From positions 1-64,000 of IMG/VR virus record IMGVR_UViG_3300013126_002744: a stretch of 64,000 nucleotides of DNA. One strand, written 5' to 3'. Both the position numbers and the translations under genes were made by a program. This stretch comes from a virus. The notes under the pieces are model-generated. The model saw only the letters and a list, made by a program, of their open reading frames with translations. It made no database searches and was not told where the DNA came from. Shown piece after piece: positions 16,201-64,000 of this stretch. Positions within the stretch are counted from its first letter, which is position 1. Each line of letters starts with the position of its first letter.

Positions 16201-19200
16201 TGAGGTTAAAGTACTGAAATCAAACTTCAACAACGGATAAGATGGCGTGGCTTGATATAGTTTTGTTTCGATATCCAGGAATAACGAACCCAACAAGTCG
16301 ACAAGATCAACCCGTTCCCATGACGTTGGTTGTTGAGTTTTTAGTTTGTATAGTGTATGATTACCACCACCAATGTGATACCAATACACCGGAAGAATAG
16401 AGCCAACCGGTTCTGTAGCGCTGATAACTGCTGATCCTGGAGATGCACTATTGTATTTCTTTATCATTACGCGGTAGATGCGATCCTGCTCAGCAAGAGA
16501 ATAGCTGACAACAGAGCTGTGCCCGTCATGATGACGAATGATAATTGATGTGCCATCCGAGACTATGTGCGGTCTGGTTGCGCGGGCCAACCCAATAATG
16601 GGTAGAGTGGCGATCCAATTAGGCATTCCAACCCCTGTTGTTGCGTCGTATGCTGTTGTGTCACCATACACTTTTGCAACATAATCATTTGTCACAAATT
16701 CCCTGATGCATCGTTCATTGATGCGTGGTTTCAATTGTTCAACACTGTAGCCTGATAACTCAATCAAGGCATCGACGATGTTTCCATTGAACAAATCACG
16801 CATAGTTACCATGTTTGCTGCATATTGCTCCTGCGCAAATTCGATAACACCAACTGGCGTCATTTCCGTAACATTAACTGCTGATATTAATGTGTCAAAT
16901 GCATCGTTGTGTTCTTTAATTGTTCCACCAACTCCGTAATCATAATCCTTTTGGTTTAGCGTGAATATCCCACCGTTTGTTAACCCAGGAATGCGCTCTT
17001 GCTGGGACACAATTGACGATAGGTGAGTAATCAGCTGGGAGTACAATATGGTTCTGTGATTTTCATGTTCTGGGTTGTTCTTCCATTGGGATATCACTTC
17101 CCAATCGCCGCGTGAATCTCCCTTTGCAAATTCTGTCGGGGTTGTTCCATCAGTGTAGGTGTATGGAGCTGCGTTCTGTTTTGCATCAACCCAATCTGGA
17201 ACATACTCAGGTGTGGTTGCCGATGTTTGCCAGATTGTTTGTAGTGTTGGGTCAGCGTTATTAACTGCAACGTCTTCAATGACGTTCCAAACATTATTGA
17301 TTGCGTCACGTTGATAGAATCCAAGAGTGGTAGGATTGACCCAAACACTCATGTGTTGGCCGCGCAGTTCTGTTGGTTCCGTTGCGCTGACAACAGGCTC
17401 ATAAGCAGCCATCCCTGTGAGTGTAACAGACACGATTGACTCAGCCCACGTTTTGCCATCCCATTTTTTAAGTTTTTGAGTCAGCGGACTATACCAGTGT
17501 GCTGGTTCGTTTCCTGTAATGTTGCGGTAAGCGTACATCACACCATTGTTCTCATCCACAAGGAATTGTTCAAATTGGTATTCTTTTCCGTCTGTTGAAG
17601 CAACAATTCTTCGCTGGGTTGAAGAATTTACTGGCTCATCAGGGCTTTCAACAAACCCAAATATAGGTGATGTCCCCACCAACTCACCAGTTACAACATC
17701 ATACATGTTGAATAGTGGGTATTGGTTAATTTTTGATTTTACTTGCTCTGTACGTTGATACTTGGTCAGTGGTTTGTATACAGGTTGTGCTCCTACCAAT
17801 ACAGCACTTTTAAACTCATTGTTGTCTTCTATCGTTCTGACGGGAATGCCGTACAGTCCCATATCCTTGTATGCGATTGGTGCAACTTCTATACGCACAA
17901 CATCATTGATTGTTAGCGGTTTGAAGAACTGAATAGCATATACATAGCTCACCTTTGCATTAACTTGTCCGATGGGGATGTTTACATTATCAACGACAGT
18001 ATAATCAGGTGTTATCGTGGACGGGGTTGTGAGCTCAGTGTAGGTACCATATTGGCGCACTCCATTTAAATATACACGTAGTTGGTTTTCCCCAGCAATA
18101 GCGTAGTACCCAGGGTGTTGTGGTTTAAAGTGGAATCTGTAATCCAAATTAACCTGGGTAATGTTGTTTATGATTGGGATAAACTCTTGATACGTGCTAG
18201 CAACAGTCACAGAACCTTCTGTTAAGGATATAGATTCAGTAGCTTGTTGGTTACCAATCTTGTAGTACGGATTGAGTTGTTGCGGAGCAGCAGCTTTCTG
18301 TGTGATGTTTTTAACATCAAGCATCCAGTGAACATGATATCCTTTCCATGAATCTCCGATGGATGTGCGGATAGGTTCAATGCGTGTGTACCGAGGTGCA
18401 TCCGGATCCGGAGGATTAGTTTCATACTCAAACACACCTGCCTCAACTGGTGCTGGGAAGTCAGTTTCTTCGATCTGAACAATCGTTACAAATTGTCCCT
18501 GTGTTAAATATTGCGGATCAGTTGGACCGATTTCACGATACCATGACCGCGTTGTTGTGAATATTTCTGATAGACCGTATTTGTCGACAATGCGGAATTT
18601 GTACCCAGCAGTGAATACACTTGTGTAATCAATGTCACGGTTTGCTGAGTTGAATTCTGAGCCAAGATAAATGAACCAAACCCCATCAATGTTGTTTGCT
18701 ATGTATGACTTAATTGGTTCCAATTCAAGGCGGGTAGGTGGTGTTGACACTGTGTCAAAAGTCTTGTCGTTCTCTCTTCTGTACTTCCATGTGTATGTGA
18801 CTTCTGTCCACTCATTCATCTCTGTTTGTGAAGAGTACTCTAGAATTGGGACTTGAGCACGGTAAGCCCCAACAAATGTCGTCAGTTCTGATTTGTGAAC
18901 CCACTTGTTTTGTGTGGTCCATTGGTTGTGTTCTTGTGGTAGACACCCAATTGATGCATCCCAACGTGCTGTACCGGTTGTTTCAATAAGAACTTCTGAG
19001 AAATTCTGCTGAACAACAATCCACGCAGTGTTTGTTTGGTTTCTCTGTTTTAATTGGTCTGCTGTCAGGTCATACCAAGTATCGCCCGCGACTGGTTGAT
19101 CACCGTTGTTGGTAATCCACTCAGCCTCCGTATCGAAACTGATATTTGCCAATAACTCTGTATTCCAGATTGCATCAGTTTGCTGGCCATCATCCCATTG

Positions 19201-42529: not shown

Positions 42530-42775
42530 ATGACTAAAGAAATGAAGCAGTACCTCGAGACAGTTGTCACATCTATCGTTAATGAAGATGCTGATTCTGC
42601 TAAAGAAGCATTCCACGAATACCTACGCCTGAAGACACAAGAAGTTTTGGGTGAAGCATCATCATGTTCTGAAGATGAAGAAGAATGTGACGAAGAATGT
42701 GACGAAGATGAAGGTTCTGGATCCGGTGAAGAAGGTTCTGGATCCGGTGAAGAAGACGAGAAGAAAGAAGACTAA
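42530..42775 (+). CDS. acidic prohead core protein (gp67/gp68 position)
   Basis: An 81-residue protein from the ATG at 42530 with AAAAGGAG upstream; an in-frame TTG at 42509 is less likely. The N-terminal half is helical; the C-terminal half is extremely acidic (DEEE and ECDEECDEDE runs) and contains two exact copies of a 21-bp unit (42710-42730 and 42731-42751) that encode EGSGSGE. Size, charge and position between portal and protease match T4 gp67/gp68, small core proteins that are cut up by gp21. Four cysteines within the acidic stretch are unusual. An I-V-N-E site precedes DADSA. Confidence 0.8.
   Translation: MTKEMKQYLETVVTSIVNEDADSAKEAFHEYLRLKTQEVLGEASSCSEDEEECDEECDEDEGSGSGEEGSGSGEEDEKKED
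42710..42751. repeat. exact 21-bp tandem duplication in the acidic core gene
   Basis: Two identical 21-bp copies encoding EGSGSGE, in frame. They lengthen a flexible acidic linker. Confidence 0.95.
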
Positions 42776-42802
42776 TACAGTCCTCTCTTAAAGGAGAATA
42801 TT

Positions 42803-43438
42803 ATGACAACTCCAATTCTGCTCGTTGAAGAACTAGCCCCTGAACAAGCACACATGATTCAAGAGTCATCAGCCGATGGCAAAAGCATGTGGTTGAATGG
42901 CGTTTGTATGATGGCCGAAAAGCAAAACCGTAACGGTCGTACATATCGTCGTTCTGAGCTTGAAGAAGCTGTTAAGAATGCTCAACAGCGCATCAAAGAA
43001 TGCAATGGTATCTTTGGTGAACTTGACCACCCTCAAACACTACAAATCAACTCTGATCGCATCTCTCACGTCATCACAGAAATGTGGATGAATGGTAATG
43101 ATGCATACGGTAAAGCAAAACTAATCAATACACCAATGGGTAACATTGCTCAGGAACTTCTACGTTCTGGTGTTAAGATTGGTGTATCAAGCCGTGGAGC
43201 TGGTAACGTGAATGAGAGTGGTGAAGTTCAAGGCTTTCAGTTTATCACATATGATATTGTGGTAACACCGTCGGCCCCCAATGCCTATCCAGGTCTAGTT
43301 TACGAATCGCTACAGAACAAGCAAGGCCAAAAAATCATGACGTTAGCTGAACAAGTCCGTCACGATCCAGCCGCTCAAAAATACTTCAAGAAAGAGATTA
43401 TGAGATGGCTAAATGAGGGGCTATTTGCTAAGAAATAA
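42803..43438 (+). CDS. 21: prohead protease gp21
   Basis: A 211-residue protein, nearly the same length as T4 gp21 (212 aa), peptidase family S80. Seen: AEKQNRNGRTY, then GELDH76P with the catalytic His, and KIGVSS130RGAG with the catalytic Ser on its strand, in the order expected. The enzyme matures the prohead by cutting scaffold, capsid and internal proteins at [LI]-x-E sites. The C-terminal segment (VRHDPAAQKYFKKEIMRWLNEGLF) would be the assembly-directing helix. AGGAG precedes the ATG. It is followed by a hairpin terminator and a separate late promoter for the scaffold gene. Confidence 0.95.
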   Translation: MTTPILLVEELAPEQAHMIQESSADGKSMWLNGVCMMAEKQNRNGRTYRRSELEEAVKNAQQRIKECNGIFGELDHPQTLQINSDRISHVITEMWMNGNDAYGKAKLINTPMGNIAQELLRSGVKIGVSSRGAGNVNESGEVQGFQFITYDIVVTPSAPNAYPGLVYESLQNKQGQKIMTLAEQVRHDPAAQKYFKKEIMRWLNEGLFAKK

Positions 43439-43448
43439 AGAAAAATTC

Positions 43449-43482
43449 AAAAAGTGGGGGACATAAAACTCTCCCATTTTTT
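43449..43482 (+). terminator. rho-independent terminator after gene 21
   Basis: About ten base pairs, AAAAAGTGGG against CCCATTTTTT (with one G-T pair), loop of 14 nt, ending in a T run. Confidence 0.75.
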
Positions 43483-43534
43483 GCGGCTGAACATCTGCGC
43501 GTAAGACGTTTTGCTGTTATATCCCGCAGGGGAT

Positions 43535-43542
43535 CATAAATA
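43535..43542 (+). promoter_or_regulatory. T4-type late promoter (CATAAATA)
   Basis: CATAAATA, 37 bp before the scaffold ATG. Confidence 0.75.
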
Positions 43543-43579
43543 AATTTACGCGTAGAAACATCAATTTAAGGAGATTAAG

Positions 43580-44524
43580 ATGGATGAACTACTAAAGAAA
43601 CTACTCGAGGCTGAAGTTCTTACAGAAGAAACAAAGTCTGAAATTGAATCTGCTGTCAAAAAGCAGATCGAAGAAACAATAGCAAATGCTCGTGAAGAAG
43701 CCACAGCTCTAGTTACTGCTGAACTAAATGAACAGTGGATTGCTGAGCGCGAAACTCTAATCGAAGCTCTTGATGCTAAGATTACAGAAGCTCTAACAGA
43801 AGAAGTTGGTGAACTAAAAGCTGACATCGAGCGTTTCCGCGACCTAGAAGCTGAACATGCTGAAAAGCTAGTTGAAGCCAAGGCTGAAATGGCTGATCAA
43901 CTAAAGAGCGACCTAGCACAACTAATTGAAAAGCTTGACGCGTTCCTGGAAGTTCGTCTATCTGCCGAGCTCGAAGAACTACGTGAAGACTTCGATATTG
44001 TTAAGAAACAGCAATTCGGTAAGACAGTGTTTGAAGCATTTGTTGCAGAATTTAAAAAGCACTATGCTGGTGATGATTCTGTTGAATCCAAGCTAAATGA
44101 AACAGAACAACGTCTTGACGATGCTCTAACAGCTCTCGAAAATGCTGAGAAGAAGGCAGCTAGACTAGAGCGCACAATGAAGCTAGAGTCAGTGCTTAAG
44201 CCACTATCTGGCCGTTCACGTGAAGTTATGGAAGCAATTCTAAAGAACGTTGAAACAACAATGCTTGAAGAAGCATACAAGACATACGTCGGTCGCGTCC
44301 TAAAGGAAACGACAGAAGTAGAAACTTCAGAGAAGGAAGAATCAGTACTAGCTGAAGGTGAAGTAAAGCCTGAAGTATCAGGCGTAGCAAAGAGCGGTGA
44401 TGATGCTGCACTAGCAAGCGAGCAGAAGAATCTAACAGAAGCTGAAGCTGCTGCTGAAACAGCAACACCAACAATCACAGAGAGCGAAAAGCTCCGTTTA
44501 CGCCGTCTAGCAGGCTTAGTTTAA
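43580..44524 (+). CDS. 22: prohead core scaffold protein gp22
   Basis: A 314-residue protein (T4 gp22 is 269 aa), almost wholly helical, rich in E, K, A and L, with coiled-coil heptads from ~1-130 and ~170-240. The segment LKPLSGRSREVMEAILKNVET with a following YKTYVGRVL resembles the conserved C-terminal part of gp22-type scaffolds. The tail (245-300) is acidic and carries several [LI]-T-E sites (NLTE-A, TITE-S), as expected for a substrate destroyed by gp21. Leucine is written mainly as CTA and CTC, a bias shared with gp23. It has AAGGAG before the ATG and lies between the protease and major capsid genes. Confidence 0.93.
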   Translation: MDELLKKLLEAEVLTEETKSEIESAVKKQIEETIANAREEATALVTAELNEQWIAERETLIEALDAKITEALTEEVGELKADIERFRDLEAEHAEKLVEAKAEMADQLKSDLAQLIEKLDAFLEVRLSAELEELREDFDIVKKQQFGKTVFEAFVAEFKKHYAGDDSVESKLNETEQRLDDALTALENAEKKAARLERTMKLESVLKPLSGRSREVMEAILKNVETTMLEEAYKTYVGRVLKETTEVETSEKEESVLAEGEVKPEVSGVAKSGDDAALASEQKNLTEAEAAAETATPTITESEKLRLRRLAGLV

Positions 44525-44560
44525 TAAAGCTAGTTAATTTTAATCTAAGGAGATTTACAA

Positions 44561-46012
44561 ATGAATGAAATGTTCGAAAACTGGTCCGAAGTTAAGGACG
44601 CTCTACTCGAAGGCCTAGACAGCCAGAAGAAGCAGATCGTTGGTACACTTCTAGAGAACCAAAAACAACACATCCTAACAGAATCAGCAGCTGCTGGCGC
44701 TGTTCAAGCTCACGACATCGCAGGCTTCCGCAAGATCCTAATCCCGATGATTCGTCGTATTATTCCAGGTACAATTGCTACTGAAATCGTTGGTGTTCAG
44801 CCAATGCAAGGTCCAGTTGGTCTAGTTTACACGATGCGTTACCGCTACGGTGAAGGCGTCAATGTTCCTGCAGCTGGTACAGCTGGCAACCCATGGGGTG
44901 CAAACCCAGTTGGTAACGATGGTACACTAAACGCTGGTGATGAAATGTTCGGCAACAACCCAGTTCTACGTCAGTTCTACTCTGGCGCAGCTGGTGCTGC
45001 TGTTGGCACACCTGCTGACCAACCAGCCGGTTCTTCTGGCATTGCTAACGCAGCTGCTGCAGAAGCCGGTATTGACGCTGATGCATCACGTGGTGCATGG
45101 CCATCAAGCCTACCAGCATACAACTCCTCACTATACGGTCCATACCCAGGTGCTGGCGTTGATGCAATTGGTAAGCAATACGCTGGTCGTCTATACGGTG
45201 GTTCCGGTTCCTACATTGAAGGTTCAGGTGGCCGTACAGTTAAGCTAGAAGTTATCAGCCAAGCTGTTGAAGCTGGTACACGTAAGCTACAAGCTGGTTG
45301 GACAGTCGAAGCTATGCAGGATCTAAAGTCCCAGCATGGTCTAGATCTAGAAAGCGAGCTAACACAAGTTGTTTCTGCTGAAATCGTTCAGGAAATCGAT
45401 AGCGAAATTCTATCTGACCTAATCGCTCTAGCAGGTACAGTTTCTTCATACGACTACGCTACAGTTGGTGCAGGTCCTGGTTATCAGCCAGCCTACCTAG
45501 GTGACCGTTTTGCTAACCTAGGCATCACAATCAATGCAGTTGCAAACGAAATCGCACGTAAGACACGTCGCGGTCCAGGTAACTTCATCGTTGTGTCCCC
45601 AATGGTTGTTTCAATCCTACAATCTGCTGCTAAGTCAGTATTTGCACCAGCAGTTGCAGGTTCCTTCAAGGGTCCAAACAACACAATGCTAGTTGGTACA
45701 CTAAACGGTACAATCAAGGTTTACTCATACCTCTGGAATCAAACACAGGGTGTTAACCTAGGTGGTACTGGTGCTGACACTATCCTTGTTGGTTACAAGG
45801 GTGGCAACGGTGAAACTGACACTGGTTACTTCTACTGCCCATACATCCCACTGATGTCAAGCGGTGTTGTTATCAACCCAGTAACATTCCAGCCAGTCGT
45901 CTCCATGATGACACGCTACGGTAAGACAGCATTTACACAGAGCGAAACATCTCTGGGTAATTCTGCCGACTACTACGGAAAGATCAACGTAAGCAACTTC
46001 ACATTTGCTTAA
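44561..46012 (+). CDS. 23: major capsid protein gp23
   Basis: A 483-residue HK97-fold capsid protein (T4 gp23 is 521 aa). Seen: the amphipathic N-terminus, RKILIPMIRRIIPGTIATEIVGVQPMQGPVGLVYTMRYRYG, a long Ala/Gly-rich insertion at ~125-200, WTVEAMQDLKSQHGLDLESELTQVVSAEIVQEID, and a C-terminal VISPMVV-like region (NFIVVSPMVVSIL ... GTLNGTIKVYSY). The N-terminal ~41 residues end in H-I-L-T-E41, a likely gp21 cleavage site before SAAAGAV. Codon use is strongly biased (Leu CTA, Thr ACA), as for a very abundant product. AAGGAG precedes the ATG. A UUCG-loop terminator follows. Confidence 0.96.
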   Translation: MNEMFENWSEVKDALLEGLDSQKKQIVGTLLENQKQHILTESAAAGAVQAHDIAGFRKILIPMIRRIIPGTIATEIVGVQPMQGPVGLVYTMRYRYGEGVNVPAAGTAGNPWGANPVGNDGTLNAGDEMFGNNPVLRQFYSGAAGAAVGTPADQPAGSSGIANAAAAEAGIDADASRGAWPSSLPAYNSSLYGPYPGAGVDAIGKQYAGRLYGGSGSYIEGSGGRTVKLEVISQAVEAGTRKLQAGWTVEAMQDLKSQHGLDLESELTQVVSAEIVQEIDSEILSDLIALAGTVSSYDYATVGAGPGYQPAYLGDRFANLGITINAVANEIARKTRRGPGNFIVVSPMVVSILQSAAKSVFAPAVAGSFKGPNNTMLVGTLNGTIKVYSYLWNQTQGVNLGGTGADTILVGYKGGNGETDTGYFYCPYIPLMSSGVVINPVTFQPVVSMMTRYGKTAFTQSETSLGNSADYYGKINVSNFTFA

Positions 46013-46036
46013 TTAGATCTGGCAGTTATGTCAAAT

Positions 46037-46066
46037 AAAGAAACCCGCTTCGGCGGGTTTCTTTTT
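46037..46066 (+). terminator. strong terminator after the major capsid gene
   Basis: Twelve-base-pair stem (46037-46048 with 46053-46064) closed by a TTCG tetraloop, followed by T5. Confidence 0.95.
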
Positions 46067-46090
46067 ATCCCTATATCAGGCGTATTCTTG

Positions 46091-46098
46091 TATAAATA
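46091..46098 (+). promoter_or_regulatory. T4-type late promoter (TATAAATA)
   Basis: Perfect TATAAATA, 23 bp before the HbpS/GlcG-like gene. Confidence 0.85.
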
Positions 46099-46121
46099 GT
46101 ATATCGAATGAGGAAAATGTA

Positions 46122-46610
46122 ATGAAACTGATTCAAAAAGTATCTAATAAGACACTAACAGAAGCTCGCCAAGATAAACCCAATGAGCTGGATTTTGATT
46201 TAGCAATGAAAATCATTAACCGTTGTGTATCGGAATCAAAAACACTAGACTGCTACATGAATATTGCTGTTGTTGATTGCACAGGACGTCTCAAAGCATT
46301 TGCTCGCATGGATGGAGCTTGGTTGGGTTCAATTGAGATTGCGCAATCAAAAGCATTTACAGCAATTGCGTTCAGTGGTGATGAAGACAAACAAGGACCA
46401 TTACCAACCGATAAACTTGCTGATATGTCGCAACCAAAAAAGGATTTGTTTGGCATTCAAAACACAAATTCAAATGATGGTGTAGTGATATTTGGTGGTG
46501 GTGTTCCACTATACATTAACGGCAAGCTGGTTGGTGCTGTTGGTGTTAGTGGTTCATCAGTTGAGAATGATATAAAGGTTGCACAAGCAGGTGCTTCTAT
46601 TGTAGAGTAA
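46122..46610 (+). CDS. HbpS/GlcG-family (DUF336) protein, candidate internal virion protein
   Basis: A 162-residue protein. From residue ~25 it follows the HbpS/GlcG fold: a helix with CVSESKTLDCYMNIAVVDCTGRLKAFARMDGAWLGSIEIAQSKAFTAIAF split over strand and helix, then LADMSQPKKDLFGIQNTN, GGGVPLYINGKLVGAVGVSGSS and DIKVAQAG. Bacterial members bind haem or act near glycolate metabolism; a phage role is unknown. The first 14 residues (MKLIQKVSNKTLTE) precede the conserved domain and end in L-T-E-A, like a gp21 cleavage site. It has its own perfect late promoter directly after the capsid gene. GAGG lies before the ATG. Confidence 0.85.
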   Translation: MKLIQKVSNKTLTEARQDKPNELDFDLAMKIINRCVSESKTLDCYMNIAVVDCTGRLKAFARMDGAWLGSIEIAQSKAFTAIAFSGDEDKQGPLPTDKLADMSQPKKDLFGIQNTNSNDGVVIFGGGVPLYINGKLVGAVGVSGSSVENDIKVAQAGASIVE

Positions 46611-46614
46611 CAAA

Positions 46615-46947
46615 ATGAAACTGTCATTTAAACAATATTTGGAAAGCAAGGAACAACTTCGCAAAGCTGTCGAGAATGTGCCTATCACTATTAACGAATA
46701 CGAAGTGATCCACTACTGCTCACTCCCTCTCGGTGAATATGAAGAGGATAAGGTGCTAGTTGGACTGAAACCAAAGCAAAAGGTTGTGGTGGAATGGAAA
46801 TATGATACGCTTGACGAGCCAACTCCACTAAATATTAAGATACAAGGCGCACAAGACATTGATGAGGGTGAACAGTTCCAGACATTCTGGGCTAGTAACA
46901 AACTTCAAAAATGGCTACGCAGACACACGAGGGCATCAAAATGCTAA
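46615..46947 (+). CDS. hypothetical late protein with short leader
   Basis: A 110-residue protein that I do not recognise, 4 bases after the HbpS-like gene with no strong ribosome site, so probably coupled. It begins MKLSFKQYLESKEQ, similar in style to the MKTYQEFIAEA leaders of T4 internal proteins. The body is strand-rich with VVVEWKYDTLDEP and a basic end (KWLRRHTRASKC). An I-N-E site lies at residues 26-28. It overlaps the next gene by 7 bases when that gene starts at 46941. Confidence 0.7.
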   Translation: MKLSFKQYLESKEQLRKAVENVPITINEYEVIHYCSLPLGEYEEDKVLVGLKPKQKVVVEWKYDTLDEPTPLNIKIQGAQDIDEGEQFQTFWASNKLQKWLRRHTRASKC

Positions 46948-47540
46948 AACTGATTAAAGAAGCACAAAAGACAAACGAAGATGTGAGCATTATTGTAGAA
47001 AACTGCACAAAATATGGCGTGTCTAAAGACCTATTAGAAAGTCTTGACGGACTAATGACGCAATATGCACGCGACATCAACGGCGGCCAAATGCGTCAGT
47101 TTGATTATGGTAACGTGTCAGAACTAGCAAACATTTTTGCATTTGCAGAGTTGCTTGGAGCGATGGGAAATAAAACAACAGATCCTGGTGCAGCCCGCGC
47201 TATTATAAACCTGTACAGAAAAGCAAAACCCGGTGTTGAACAGACAATCGTCAATTTGATTTACAAAATTATTGACCATCTGGATCCTGGCATCCAACAA
47301 CAATTCAAACAAAATGCAAATAGTTGGGGCAACATGCTCTCTCACACACTTAGAAGCCCAACCCCGGAAAATATGAAGGAAGTTGCTAGCGCATTGGTTG
47401 GAACTGCAGCTCGTCTAAACACAGCTATGAGACAGTTTGAGCAAAATCACACAGATGTAATTACGAAGCACCGTATTCAACAAACTAATGCTATGAAGCC
47501 AGCAATGGCTCCACAACAACGCCCGGTACCACGCCGTTAA
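46941..47540 (+). CDS. hypothetical helical late protein
   Basis: A 199-residue protein from the ATG at 46941, chosen for GAGGG 7 nt upstream; a longer frame from 46911 lacks a site. It starts MLKLIKEAQ, with an I-K-E-A motif at residues 5-8 that resembles a prohead protease site. The body is mainly alpha-helical (NIFAFAELLGAMG, ARAIINLYRKAKPGVEQTIVNLIYKIIDHL), and the C-terminal ~25 residues are P/Q/R-rich. There is no known family. Its stop is followed directly by a sigma70-like promoter for the next operon, so it ends the late unit that begins at 46091. Confidence 0.7.
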   Translation: MLKLIKEAQKTNEDVSIIVENCTKYGVSKDLLESLDGLMTQYARDINGGQMRQFDYGNVSELANIFAFAELLGAMGNKTTDPGAARAIINLYRKAKPGVEQTIVNLIYKIIDHLDPGIQQQFKQNANSWGNMLSHTLRSPTPENMKEVASALVGTAARLNTAMRQFEQNHTDVITKHRIQQTNAMKPAMAPQQRPVPRR

Positions 47541-47550
47541 AAACTTTTTG

Positions 47551-47579
47551 TTGACTTTTGGGTGAAAATGTTGTACAGT
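47551..47579 (+). promoter_or_regulatory. sigma70-like promoter inside the late region
   Basis: TTGACT (47551-47556), a 17-bp spacer and TACAGT (47574-47579), about 38 bp before the ATG at 47618. No TATAAATA motif is present here, so this small operon looks early. Confidence 0.65.
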
Positions 47580-47617
47580 GCACCCATCAATCAAAGAACC
47601 GCAAAAAGGAAATAGCC

Positions 47618-47827
47618 ATGTTAGCAATGATGACCGCACTGACCGCACCGTGGAGCCTCTACACAGAAGTACGCATCACCGATCCTGTGAAGAAGGTGTT
47701 GGGTCAGCCGACATCGTATGAACTAATCGCCAAGGGCATCAACGATTGTGTGGACATGAACAAACTCCAACAGGCTAATGACCGTCTGACCCTTGCACTG
47801 CTGCGCATGCAAGCTCGTGATAACTAA
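47618..47827 (+). CDS. small hypothetical protein, probably early
   Basis: A 69-residue protein from the ATG at 47618 (MLAMMTALTAPW), chosen for AAAAAGGAAA upstream; the longer frame from 47558 starts inside the promoter region. It has no recognised domain. The last 25 residues form a likely helix (NKLQQANDRLTLALLRM). It shares a promoter with the next gene. Confidence 0.6.
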   Translation: MLAMMTALTAPWSLYTEVRITDPVKKVLGQPTSYELIAKGINDCVDMNKLQQANDRLTLALLRMQARDN

Positions 47828-47858
47828 AACTCCCTCAACCTCCAAAAAAGGAAAACAT

Positions 47859-48461
47859 ATGCAACTCACCCCAACCATCACTAATGGTGTCAAGCTCTTT
47901 GTCCAACTGACTGCACTTCGTAGCGATCCCCTTGAGGCAAAATGGGTACGAGATGAAGACGATCTCCGCATCGCACTATCTCAAATCGCTGATGAGATGA
48001 AGTACACCAAGTCCATGCTTGGCAAGAAAATGTACAAGACGCGTGACGCAGAAGGGTTTGACTTTGTGGACGACGTCAAACGAGCAATCGAAGAAACACT
48101 ACTCGTTGGTGAAGATGAACGCGACACAAGGTTGATGCGTAAGAAAAATCTCACCATGTACCATCTGGTTCTTGAGCCAGTAATTGAGTGGATCGGCACT
48201 CTATCTCATGCTGATGCTATTCAGTTTGCACGAGAATACACTGATGCTGTATACGAACATGTTGCAACAGTAAATGTCAACACCCACTTTGATGACGCCG
48301 TGGTTGCAAAGTCTATTGTGAAGAGTATGGTAAAAGAGCGCGAAGAAGCTCGTAAAGCAACACTGCTTGCTCAACGTAGGGGCCGACGCAACAAGAAGAA
48401 AGAAGATGAGTTGATGAAGGAATTTGCGGAACCGACAGAAGAAGATATCGATTTAGAATAA
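47859..48461 (+). CDS. hypothetical helical protein, probably early
   Basis: A 200-residue protein from the ATG at 47859 with AAAAAAGGAAAA upstream; a longer frame from 47793 overlaps the preceding gene and has no site. It is charged and mainly helical. Residues 150-200 are very basic then acidic (RKATLLAQRRGRRNKKKEDELMKEF, then EPTEEDIDLE), which suggests nucleic acid or RNA polymerase contact, inferred from charge only. It is followed by a bidirectional terminator. Confidence 0.75.
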   Translation: MQLTPTITNGVKLFVQLTALRSDPLEAKWVRDEDDLRIALSQIADEMKYTKSMLGKKMYKTRDAEGFDFVDDVKRAIEETLLVGEDERDTRLMRKKNLTMYHLVLEPVIEWIGTLSHADAIQFAREYTDAVYEHVATVNVNTHFDDAVVAKSIVKSMVKEREEARKATLLAQRRGRRNKKKEDELMKEFAEPTEEDIDLE

Positions 48462-48464
48462 CAC

Positions 48465-48487
48465 AAAGGCCCTTATGGGCCTTTTTT
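48465..48487. terminator. bidirectional terminator
   Basis: Eight-base-pair stem AAAGGCCC / GGGCCTTT with a TTAT loop, followed by a T run. It lies between the plus-strand operon and the convergent acetyltransferase gene. Confidence 0.92.
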
Positions 48488-48857
48488 ATTGCGGTTGGCG
48501 GATCATCTTCCTGCCGCTAAACACAAAACCGTAACGAGAATACCATTTCACTAATGCAGCCTTGTTGGCATCATCAGCAGGTGCGGGCATTAGCAATAAC
48601 ACCGTTTGTGTTTTGTCTGCTATGTCCACCAGCTGTTGCATGACCTTTGTTCCATTACCAGCTCCTCGCATGTCAGGATAAGTGTAGATTGTGCTAATGT
48701 ACACATCGGTTGCTGACAATGGCACCAACTCAACAGAAGTGCCTGGCATTGCGTGGAACGTCCTGTCGTTAGAACTGCCACCCCAGGCATCAGCAGCTGC
48801 ATTCATAAAATCAACCGCAGGGGATGGAGCTGTATTTAAAATCTCAAATAGTTTCAT
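48486..48857 (-). CDS. GNAT-family N-acetyltransferase
   Basis: A 123-residue protein from the ATG at 48857. The acetyl-CoA binding motif A is clear: a strand TDVYISTIYTY followed by R-G-A-G-N-G-T-K and a helix with VMQQLVDIAD, then a strand VLLLMPAP and WYSRYGFVFSG, the usual C-terminal strand-helix pair of GNAT enzymes. The substrate is unknown. The start begins MKLFEIL. The GATAAATA octamer is only five bases upstream of the ATG, which would place the transcript start at or very near the initiation codon. A longer frame to 49049 overlaps a divergent gene and has no signals. Confidence 0.8.
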   Translation of the reverse strand: MKLFEILNTAPSPAVDFMNAAADAWGGSSNDRTFHAMPGTSVELVPLSATDVYISTIYTYPDMRGAGNGTKVMQQLVDIADKTQTVLLLMPAPADDANKAALVKWYSRYGFVFSGRKMIRQPQ

Positions 48858-52051: not shown

Positions 52052-53008
52052 ATGGACGAGAAAACACAACACTTCATAAACAGAGCCGTTGCAAAACATG
52101 GGGACAAATATGACTACACCCAAGTTGTATACAAAAACACTCATACAAAAGTAACCATAATATGCAAGGATCATGGAGCATTTGATATCCGTCCAAATGA
52201 CCATCTGCGAGGATTTGGTTGCACTGTGTGTTCAGGTAAACGGCCGCCCCTAACACATGATCAAGTCATTCAGCGGATACGATCAATCCACGGTGACAAA
52301 TATGATTGCTCCAACGTGGTGTTCCAGACAATAAACCATGACATAACTCTCATATGTCCAGAGCATGGAGATTTTACAATCAAACCAAAATCTATTTTTC
52401 TACAACAAGCGGGATGTAACAAGTGTGCATACCACATGAGAGGAAATTCACGACGAAAAAGTATTGATCGGTTTATATCAGAAGCCACTGCAATACACGG
52501 CAGCCGCTACGACTATTCACACATAACTGAATACAAAAACAACAAAACTAATTTGCCTATAATATGTCCCACACACGGTGTATTTTTACAAACAGCGACA
52601 TCACACATAACACAAAAATCAGGGTGCCCTTTGTGTAACACAGGGAATGGCAAAGGTGGATACACACATGCGTTTTTTGATCACAACCCTGACAAAAAGT
52701 CGCTGCCGGGAGTATTATACGCCGCTTACTTCACAAATGGTAAAGAGCAGTTCATCAAGATTGGCATTACGGCAAAAACAACTGGACACCGTTTTAATAG
52801 AAGTGAATACAAAGGTATGACAATAGAGGTATTACACGAGTGTTATATGCCATTATATGATGCATTCTGTATAGAGCAAGATGTTATAGCCAAATTAAAA
52901 GACCACAGGTTTTATTCCAACACTGCATTTTCAGGTCACACCGAATGCTTTCGTAACACACCTGATGTTATAACCGAAATACAAAATATCTTCATAAATA
53001 AAGACTAA
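52052..53008 (+). CDS. homing endonuclease-like protein: three DUF723-type zinc repeats plus GIY-YIG-like domain
   Basis: A 318-residue protein. The first ~205 residues contain three repeats of the form F-x-x-x-A-x-x-x-HG-x-(K/R)YDYS/T-x-V ... I-x-C-x-x-HG-x-F ... GC-x-x-C, at about 8-62, 75-128 and 142-198; these match the DUF723 motif found next to phage homing nucleases. Residues ~220-300 look like a divergent GIY-YIG domain (GVLYAAYF ... FIKIGITAKTTGHRFN, and a catalytic-type Glu in CIEQDVI). It is inserted between the gp13- and gp14-like genes on the coding strand, with its own CATAAATA and GGAG. It probably spreads between phages by cutting at the uninterrupted junction, which is inferred. 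Confidence 0.85.
   Translation: MDEKTQHFINRAVAKHGDKYDYTQVVYKNTHTKVTIICKDHGAFDIRPNDHLRGFGCTVCSGKRPPLTHDQVIQRIRSIHGDKYDCSNVVFQTINHDITLICPEHGDFTIKPKSIFLQQAGCNKCAYHMRGNSRRKSIDRFISEATAIHGSRYDYSHITEYKNNKTNLPIICPTHGVFLQTATSHITQKSGCPLCNTGNGKGGYTHAFFDHNPDKKSLPGVLYAAYFTNGKEQFIKIGITAKTTGHRFNRSEYKGMTIEVLHECYMPLYDAFCIEQDVIAKLKDHRFYSNTAFSGHTECFRNTPDVITEIQNIFINKD
52993..53000 (+). promoter_or_regulatory. T4-type late promoter (CATAAATA)
   Basis: CATAAATA inside the last codons of the endonuclease gene, 36 bp before the gp14-like ATG. It would restore expression of the downstream neck gene. Confidence 0.6.
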
Positions 53009-62383: not shown

Positions 62384-62824
62384 ATGAAAGTCATCAAGAA
62401 AGAAAAGATTATTGAACATCCGCTCGAAGAAGAGTTTGACATCGAACCGGGCACTACCATAGCAGAAGTATCCGAAGTCATTCCATCAGAAGTTATCCAG
62501 GTTGCTGGGTATGATGAAAAAGATGATGAGATTGAAGAGAAACTGGAAGAAATCTATGCCGTAGCCATGAGCAATGTGGAACTAGTGGCAGACGAAATGG
62601 ATCGCGTCGAAGGCAAATACAAGGCTCGTGTTGGCGAAGTTACAGCAACAATGTTGAGTGTTGCTCTCGGGGCTGTCCGTGAAAAATCATTACTCAAGCA
62701 GCACAAAGATAAACTTGGTGTAACTGCTGCGGCAGCGAGAACGCCAAACACCGTAAATCAAAACTTAATTGTTGCGGACAGAAATGAAATTCTCAGGTCG
62801 TTGCTCAGTAAAGAGGATAAATAA
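62384..62824 (+). CDS. putative small terminase subunit (gp16-like)
   Basis: A 146-residue protein from the ATG at 62384 (MKVIKKEK); a longer frame from 62342 overlaps gp4. The first 50 residues are acidic. From ~residue 60 two long helices (EKLEEIYAVAMSNVELVADEMDRVEGKYKARVGEVTATMLSVALGAVREKSLLKQHKDKL region) look like the central oligomerisation coil of gp16-type small terminases, and the end NQNLIVADRNEILRSLL resembles their C-terminal VFVGSTxELxxLL strand-helix. T4 gp16 has 164 residues. gp16 regulates DNA packaging with gp17; no gp17 is seen in this window. The call is by pattern only. Confidence 0.55.
   Translation: MKVIKKEKIIEHPLEEEFDIEPGTTIAEVSEVIPSEVIQVAGYDEKDDEIEEKLEEIYAVAMSNVELVADEMDRVEGKYKARVGEVTATMLSVALGAVREKSLLKQHKDKLGVTAAAARTPNTVNQNLIVADRNEILRSLLSKEDK
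62816..62823 (+). promoter_or_regulatory. T4-type late promoter (GATAAATA)
   Basis: GATAAATA overlapping the gp16-like stop, 26 bp before the last gene. Confidence 0.6.
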
Positions 62825-62849: not shown

Positions 62850-64000
62850 ATGAAATATTACAAAATTGAACCTGCTAAATCGCTGAAGGACTACCTGAAC
62901 GAAAGTGCGTTGTCAATCAATGACTTGTTCAAACCAGCAAATGCTGCTGTTATCCGCGCTGGGTACAGCGATCGTATTGATCCTCTGATTGCTATGATCA
63001 AACAATCAATGGAGACACCCATTACATTATCAAATGGTCAAACAGCATCGTTCAATGATGAAGATAACCAACAAATTCTTCAAATCCTGGCATCCAAAGA
63101 TGCTGACACCATTCGTGCAGCGCTTCAACGCAAAAAGCCGTTCATTGACACACAAGGTGTTCCACACGCAATCACAGATTTTGAAAAGACGGCTGAGTTT
63201 GGTGGAGGTGGTGGAGCTAACGCCGGCGCCGCCCAAACTGCAGTTCAAGAAGTCGGTCAGGCAGTGGTGCTAGGTTTGATGAATGTACTCGGGACTAACC
63301 ACCTCGAATTATCAGACTTGACAGAAGAAAATCTAATGAAAGGTGCGCGCACCGTTCAACCGGATGCTACTGGACAGGTTGGCGAAATCTTCCAGCTGAT
63401 CAATTCGGACAAGAAACAATCGTGGGGTGTTACATTCATTGCTAGTGCTAATGCGCTAGCAAAATCAGGTCTCAAACTATCGGATAAAGAATTCCACCGC
63501 GGTGGTCCATGGGTTGAACATCTCGCAAAGGTGTGGAGTGCTGCTAATAAAGCAAAGCAACCAAAACCATTTGACAATATTAACAAATGGTCTCCAGCAG
63601 ATATCTGGATTGTAAAGCCAGGCATTGAAGCCCCAACTGTGAATTCTCTTGAAGAACTAAACAAATGGTTGTTGGAGCAGTATCATGCTGGCACAGTATA
63701 TGGTGTATCTCTGAAAAAGACATCAGCCAACCCAACAGTTCATGTGTATAATATGGATCCTGTAAAAGAACAAATCAAGGCTGTGGTAAAGGAATTGATT
63801 GTATCTCGACAAAACGGCCTTCAGAATTTGTTCAGTAGCAAAGGATCCCGTATGACATATCAAGCGGAAATGGCACACATCCCGCTATCAGCATATTATA
63901 GACTGTTTGAAGATGGTCGCGAAGAAGTTCAGTACCGTCAGTTCAACTCTGGTGGCAATATTGCTGGGGAGATTGCCGGCAAACACGCTGCTCACGGTAA
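62850..64000 (+). CDS. large unknown protein, incomplete at window end
   Basis: An open frame from the ATG at 62850 to the end of the window (383 full codons, no stop). It begins MKYYKIEPAKSLKDYLNESALSIND, with L-N-E-S at residues 16-19, similar to a capsid-targeting leader with a gp21 site. Then comes a helical region, a segment FEKTAEFGGGGGANAG (residues ~109-124) followed by a helix, and WSPADIWIVKPG near 250, then a strand VYGVSLKKT. The K-T-x-E-FGGGGG and WSPADIW blocks look like recurring phage motifs, but I do not recall a function. It could be an internal or injected virion protein, given its late promoter and leader. Confidence 0.75.
   Translation, partial: MKYYKIEPAKSLKDYLNESALSINDLFKPANAAVIRAGYSDRIDPLIAMIKQSMETPITLSNGQTASFNDEDNQQILQILASKDADTIRAALQRKKPFIDTQGVPHAITDFEKTAEFGGGGGANAGAAQTAVQEVGQAVVLGLMNVLGTNHLELSDLTEENLMKGARTVQPDATGQVGEIFQLINSDKKQSWGVTFIASANALAKSGLKLSDKEFHRGGPWVEHLAKVWSAANKAKQPKPFDNINKWSPADIWIVKPGIEAPTVNSLEELNKWLLEQYHAGTVYGVSLKKTSANPTVHVYNMDPVKEQIKAVVKELIVSRQNGLQNLFSSKGSRMTYQAEMAHIPLSAYYRLFEDGREEVQYRQFNSGGNIAGEIAGKHAAHG

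Follow-up and report, generated by a model that had tools for sequence, protein, structure and literature searches.

The short genes lying next to the major capsid gene of an uncultured T4-like phage raise the question of whether their products are internal head proteins, packed into the prohead and cut there by the phage's own gp21 protease. The earlier note on this DNA had proposed this for several proteins with short leaders ending in [LI]-x-E followed by A or S. The window analyzed here comprises 64,000 nucleotides of a 68,783-base IMG/VR virus record (IMGVR_UViG_3300013126_002744), for which gene calls and starts were made mechanically. A T4-type head block, with gp67-like, gp21, gp22 and gp23 genes, was recognized in the window by Pfam, PHROG and position. 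By capsid protein, the closest isolate was found to be Xanthomonas phage XacN1, with 67% across 83% of the length, followed by Stenotrophomonas phages CM1/RAS14 (55%). The features concerned are the following:

42530–42775, + strand: gp67-like acidic core protein, 81 aa, pI 4.1 (placed before gp21, acidic tail; relatives in 39 loci)
42803–43438, + strand: gp21-type prohead protease, Peptidase_S77, with its own site MIQE21/S22 (Pfam 5e-27, PHROG 1e-57)
43580–44524, + strand: gp22-type scaffold in which several [LI]xE sites occur (assigned by position and acidic composition; relatives in 77 loci)
44561–46012, + strand: major capsid protein gp23, cleavage site ILTE41/S42 (Pfam Gp23, 1e-96)
46122–46610, + strand: EfgA/HbpS-like accessory protein (DUF336, PF03928), leader MKLIQKVSNKTLTE/A (Pfam 7e-35)
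46615–46947, + strand: p110, conserved head-locus protein with the CTS-like start FKQYLESK (homologues in 53 loci)
46941–47540, + strand: p199, fast-evolving basic helical protein, pI 9.3 (alignment A3 of 17)
48486–48857, − strand: GNAT acetyltransferase, 123 aa, slot-type start MKLFEIL (Pfam Acetyltransf_1 above cut-off)
62850–64000, + strand, continuing to 64364 in the record: 504-aa protein, CTS-like leader SLKDYLNE18/S19 (PHROG_1462, 1.5e-40)

The gp67-like name is our assumption, from resemblance to T4 gp67. The motif positions listed in the earlier note were all confirmed, namely TLTE14-A (46122), LIKE7-A (46941) and YLNE18-S (62850), as were ILTE41-S in gp23 and NLTE-A and TITE-S among the seven motif matches of gp22. 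When the first 25 residues of the 54 called genes of the record were searched for [LI]xE[AS], four matched, those of gp21, gp22 and the 46122 and 46941 proteins, with the 62850 ORF as a further carrier provided that the start given for it in the earlier note holds. All four fall within the nine-gene head block at 42530–48461 (p about 4e-4, by our own arithmetic). The total of four is unremarkable alone (shuffles 1.8 ± 1.3, p about 0.11), and internal 25-aa windows matched in 23 of 753 cases; it is the placement of the N-terminal motifs in the head block that is unusual, and not their count.

The rule described for T4 gp21 is L/I-x-E, and in T4 IPIII residues 4 and 7 serve targeting and residues 8 and 10 processing (PMC9026906). 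The preference of the clade's protease is readable from its own predicted substrates: the aligned gp23 proteins of relatives retain the Glu, in the context [LI]xE/[TSANE], and around residue 21 most gp21 sequences of the clade share an aligned site of their own, [IVLM]xE/[STAE]. T4 served as a control for the bare N-terminal motif, which matched 21 of 255 called genes there; eight of these are, as we take it from position and sequence, known head proteins, so that the bare motif alone would be right about four times in ten (~40%). The strict CTS pattern, [FYW]xx[FYW][LIM]x(1,2)E, matched three of the 255 genes, presumably IPII, IPIII and 61.1 (again by position and sequence), and MK[LIV]xE starts matched none of the 255. 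Gene 61.1 of T4 (18966–19130, L329), which has the CTS-like start MKTFKEFIKED, encodes a protein of unknown function.

The first of the capsid-adjacent products, at 46122, had been labeled HbpS-like. The best solved relative was found to be EfgA (6BWS/6C0Z, 7e-28), a far closer match than the HbpS of Streptomyces reticuli (3fpv, 8.5e-7), an extracellular heme sensor of the same Pfam family, PF03928, and the HbpS name was dropped on these values. EfgA is a formaldehyde sensor that modulates translation, with K57, S114 and D121 implicated in formaldehyde binding (PMC8153426). By hand mapping these correspond to K77, S143 and D150, which are invariant in alignment A4; they are common across DUF336 and not diagnostic within it, and a formaldehyde-binding role here is putative. 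The phage-borne protein differs from EfgA in an 8-residue insert after F84 and in a leader of ~20 residues (MKLIQKVSNK-TLTE/A), the core starting at about residue 21. The leader is, judging from the homologues, an add-on to the EfgA-like core: most of 80 bacterial homologues lack it, some 53 of the 79 in the alignment showing at most two residues before residue 22, and in the AlphaFold model residues 1–20 are predicted to be disordered (mean pLDDT < 50), with a value of 89 for the next block. A search of viral contigs with the single protein gave no match, whereas a search with the alignment gave nine loci, mostly cyanophage-like, and the cyanophage-like DUF336 genes with readable starts begin at the core. 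The DUF336 genes L338–L341, L343 and L344 are leaderless and have no adjacent capsid gene in the stretches read. No PF03928 or EfgA-like orthologue was present in 21 related records.

The EfgA-like protein is the best candidate cargo in this phage, and packaging and cutting of it are, on balance, slightly favored. The disordered add-on leader with LTE14/A15 agrees with what the earlier note had claimed for this protein; the likeness to the T4 targeting signal is incomplete, I4 and V7 standing where IPIII has aromatics at positions 4 and 7. These missing aromatics also lend weight to an alternative that we regard as unlikely, although it is a serious one, in which p199 and p110 genuinely belong to the head and the EfgA-like gene is a metabolic or stress gene acting outside the virion, with an incidental extension. 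A single copy is known in the clade, the DUF336 genes of cyanophage-like contigs lack leaders, and a few bacterial homologues also carry N-terminal extensions, all of which suit that alternative. Against it stand the perfect gp21 site shortly before the core, the MKL start resembling that of many genes in the same position of relatives, and the location of the leaderless phage homologues, none of which has a capsid gene as a neighbor within the stretches read.

The next gene product, p110, bears directly on the suggestion that the whole interval is a cassette of cleaved proteins. F5, Y8 and K12 are invariant in alignment A2, and nearly all relatives' p110 proteins have a start like [ST]FKxY[LIVW]x[SG]K. 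This start has the CTS spacing F-x-x-Y-L, but Ser or Gly takes the place of the cut Glu, which counts against the whole interval as a cleaved cassette. It may be that p110 is a resident that docks without being cut.

For p199, the start at 46941 is credible, with GAGGG upstream of it and no such element upstream of 46911. The cut site that had been proposed, LIKE7-A8, was not borne out, as Glu7 is poorly kept among the 17 family members, and LLE33/S34 is the likelier site. In a family with a mean column identity of 26%, E33 is the sole column above 90%, with Glu in 16 of the 17 members; around it, P3 is mostly L, I or V and P1' mostly S, G, N or A. In the AlphaFold model (pLDDT 84), E33-S34 falls in a linker that joins an N-terminal helix to the main bundle. 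A fold search gave no PDB match below E 0.001, and a single-protein search with p199 recovered its own contig only. These features suggest that p199 is probably a head protein, internal or of the core, that undergoes processing at E33, and its start may dock it on the prohead. Position 4 of p199 is L, with no aromatic at that targeting position. Alternatively, E33 might be kept for structure, for instance as a helix cap, rather than as a protease site; in the model a helix begins next to it, and a conserved hydrophobic helix follows. We consider this improbable but worth weighing, since the most conserved column of so divergent a family is placed in a linker and has neighbors that fit the preferences of the clade protease (small P1', mostly aliphatic P3).

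Two further candidates were considered. The 62850 ORF sits between the terminase small and large subunits, and its start is uncertain, an ATG with a better ribosome site being present at 62784. In its product (pI 8.9), P4 is Y and P7 is L. A distant homologue from cyanophage S-SCSM1, which has a different N-terminus, bears a virion-protein annotation, and cyanophage homologues match mainly from residue 130 and have other N-termini. The true start of the GNAT gene is probably the internal ATG at 48857; the GNAT found in the corresponding place of a relative (L074/L270) aligns from residue 1 and begins MKLYQLFEN, which supports this start, and a longer version of the ORF, to 49049, runs antisense into the neck gene.

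The order gp21, gp22, gp23, p110 and neck gene (a PHROG head-tail adaptor) is kept among relatives, and between gp23 and the neck gene the content of this slot varies from phage to phage. The strict CTS pattern was found in 7 of 54 accessory slot families, compared with 7 of 833 genes elsewhere in the relatives' genomes (p 5e-6), and [LI]xE[ASG] within 25 residues in 10/54 and 44/833, respectively (p 9e-4); both patterns derive from the T4 literature and the earlier note. MK[LIV]xE starts were found in 14/54 slot families and 18/833 genes elsewhere, a class defined post hoc from these data, for which the p value of 4e-10 is descriptive. Examples of slot leaders in relatives include MISFKQFLAE/A, MKPTFIEFLIE/A and MSLPTFKEFLFE/A. 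A further 15 p110-bearing contigs added leaders such as MFTFKDYLITE/A and MITFREFLLKE/A, the CTS genes of these contigs appearing to belong to families already seen. Enrichment was absent in 39 more distant contigs (1/19 new slot families vs. 17/110), where by our reading the slot holds mostly peptidase/endolysin-like or unrelated genes; the leader pattern is therefore that of the near clade and not of all such phages. The central proposal of packaging and gp21 cutting through a shared motif is supported in part: it gains from the leader enrichment in the slot of near relatives, an enrichment that did not recur in the distant contigs. Pfam assigned little function to most of the leader-bearing slot proteins of relatives. 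Two side observations concern gene content around the head genes. In XacN1 and RAS14 a second insertion site is present, where an island of ~20 accessory genes separates gp21 from gp22 (L083 2232–10759, L084 3317–10736) and from which the XacN1 lipase ORF279 was found in virions (PMC5852040). In the window, the ORF at 52052–53008, among the neck genes, has a 'HGDKYDYTQVVYKN' motif and resembles a capsid-slot ORF of another locus (L262, 3718–5277); it is possibly a mobile endonuclease-like gene.

In the weakest of the alternatives, accessory genes simply collect in the slot as a hot spot and are expressed late along with the head operon; their products act in the infected cell, and their leaders reflect chance or an N-terminal bias of late genes. 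This alternative draws on slot content that looks mobile or unrelated (e.g., a large zinc-ribbon family), on the leaderless slot chitinase/endolysin of XacN1 and RAS14, on the distant contigs and on the weak predictive value of the bare motif in T4, but is judged rather improbable in view of a leader frequency of 46% in the slot and 9% in other head/tail genes of the same loci, the 24 leaders observed against 3.1 ± 1.6 in residue shuffles (a union including the post hoc class), and the confinement of the strict pattern in T4 to what we take to be IPII, IPIII and 61.1.

Virion data from related T4-like phages show that products bearing a CTS, or encoded next to the capsid gene, can form part of the particle. 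The NMNAT of S-SCSM1 was detected in virions by MS, and the accessible text of that report does not mention a leader or N-terminal cleavage (PMC9602691). Its sequence starts MKSFLQFLKE/A, with T4 CTS spacing (L173 2568–3797). This T4-like phage enzyme, with exact CTS spacing and virion detection, is a close parallel, but a different enzyme at a different locus. The NMNAT/NadR of S-CREM1 (L177 2554–3687) starts MKRYTNFLSE-A, also with T4 CTS spacing. The chitinase ORF272 of XacN1 was found in virions (PMC5852040); it is encoded between gp23 and p110, in the equivalent slot, and has no leader, which means that a leader is not required for virion entry from the slot. ORF272 may be carried differently from leader-tagged proteins.

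Compared with IPI, IPII and IPIII of T4, the proteins studied here share a short leader ending in [LI]xE before a small residue (E14 of the EfgA-like protein, E18 of the 62850 product if its start holds, and E7 of p199), the presence of a gp21-type S77 protease and a gp22 scaffold in the same phage, the variability of the cargo, the basic character of p199 and, in relatives, leaders with T4 spacing (as in MISFKQFLAE/A). The layout of the EfgA-like leader recalls that of the T4 protein MKTFKEFTSTTTPVSTITE/A (MKTFKEF...STITE/A), which we take to be IPI, but lacks its aromatics. The differences are that the cargo adjoins gp23 here and lies at a distant locus in T4; that the aromatic pair of positions 4 and 7 is absent from the EfgA-like protein and not complete in p199 (L4) or the 62850 product (L at P7, Y at P4), whereas some slot genes of relatives have it; that the EfgA-like protein is acidic (pI 5.2), unlike the T4 internal proteins; and that a second type of start, MK[LIV]xE, is common here, unlike in T4.

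The reading that we prefer, and hold to be reasonably probable, is that of a capsid-adjacent, hypervariable cargo slot, the products of which would carry docking leaders cut by gp21 and would be injected. The docking, cleavage, packaging and injection that we infer here would proceed as follows. In this T4-like giant-phage clade, the region downstream of gp23 would serve as the slot; short N-terminal leaders would dock the slot proteins on the prohead core; gp21 would cut behind the Glu in [LIV]xE; and the released proteins would remain inside the head and enter the host together with the DNA at injection. The cargo in this phage would comprise the EfgA-like protein, cut at E14/A15, and possibly the GNAT enzyme, with p199 alongside as a conserved basic internal protein, its main cut at E33/S34 rather than E7/A8. 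A bolder and doubtful extension of this reading would be a dedicated payload bay next to the capsid gene, its content exchanged rapidly, in which newly arrived genes would turn into head cargo by gaining a short leader of one of at least two types (the T4-type FxxFLxE and the new MK[LIV]xE), with p110 (FKQYLxSK) as an uncut resident dock, and a payload that injects an EfgA-like, translation-modulating sensor.

The observation made in the earlier note matters more than a single genome could reveal, since near relatives show the pattern again at the same address. If the preferred reading is true, the virion cargo of uncultured giant phages would be readable from sequence at one conserved address, and many unknown capsid-adjacent genes would become testable injected effectors or counter-defenses. 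The internal-protein system of T4 would be extended to a broad clade, and a set of packaging tags would be gained. With the EfgA-like cargo, the phage would then deliver a relative of a sensor by which host translation is halted.
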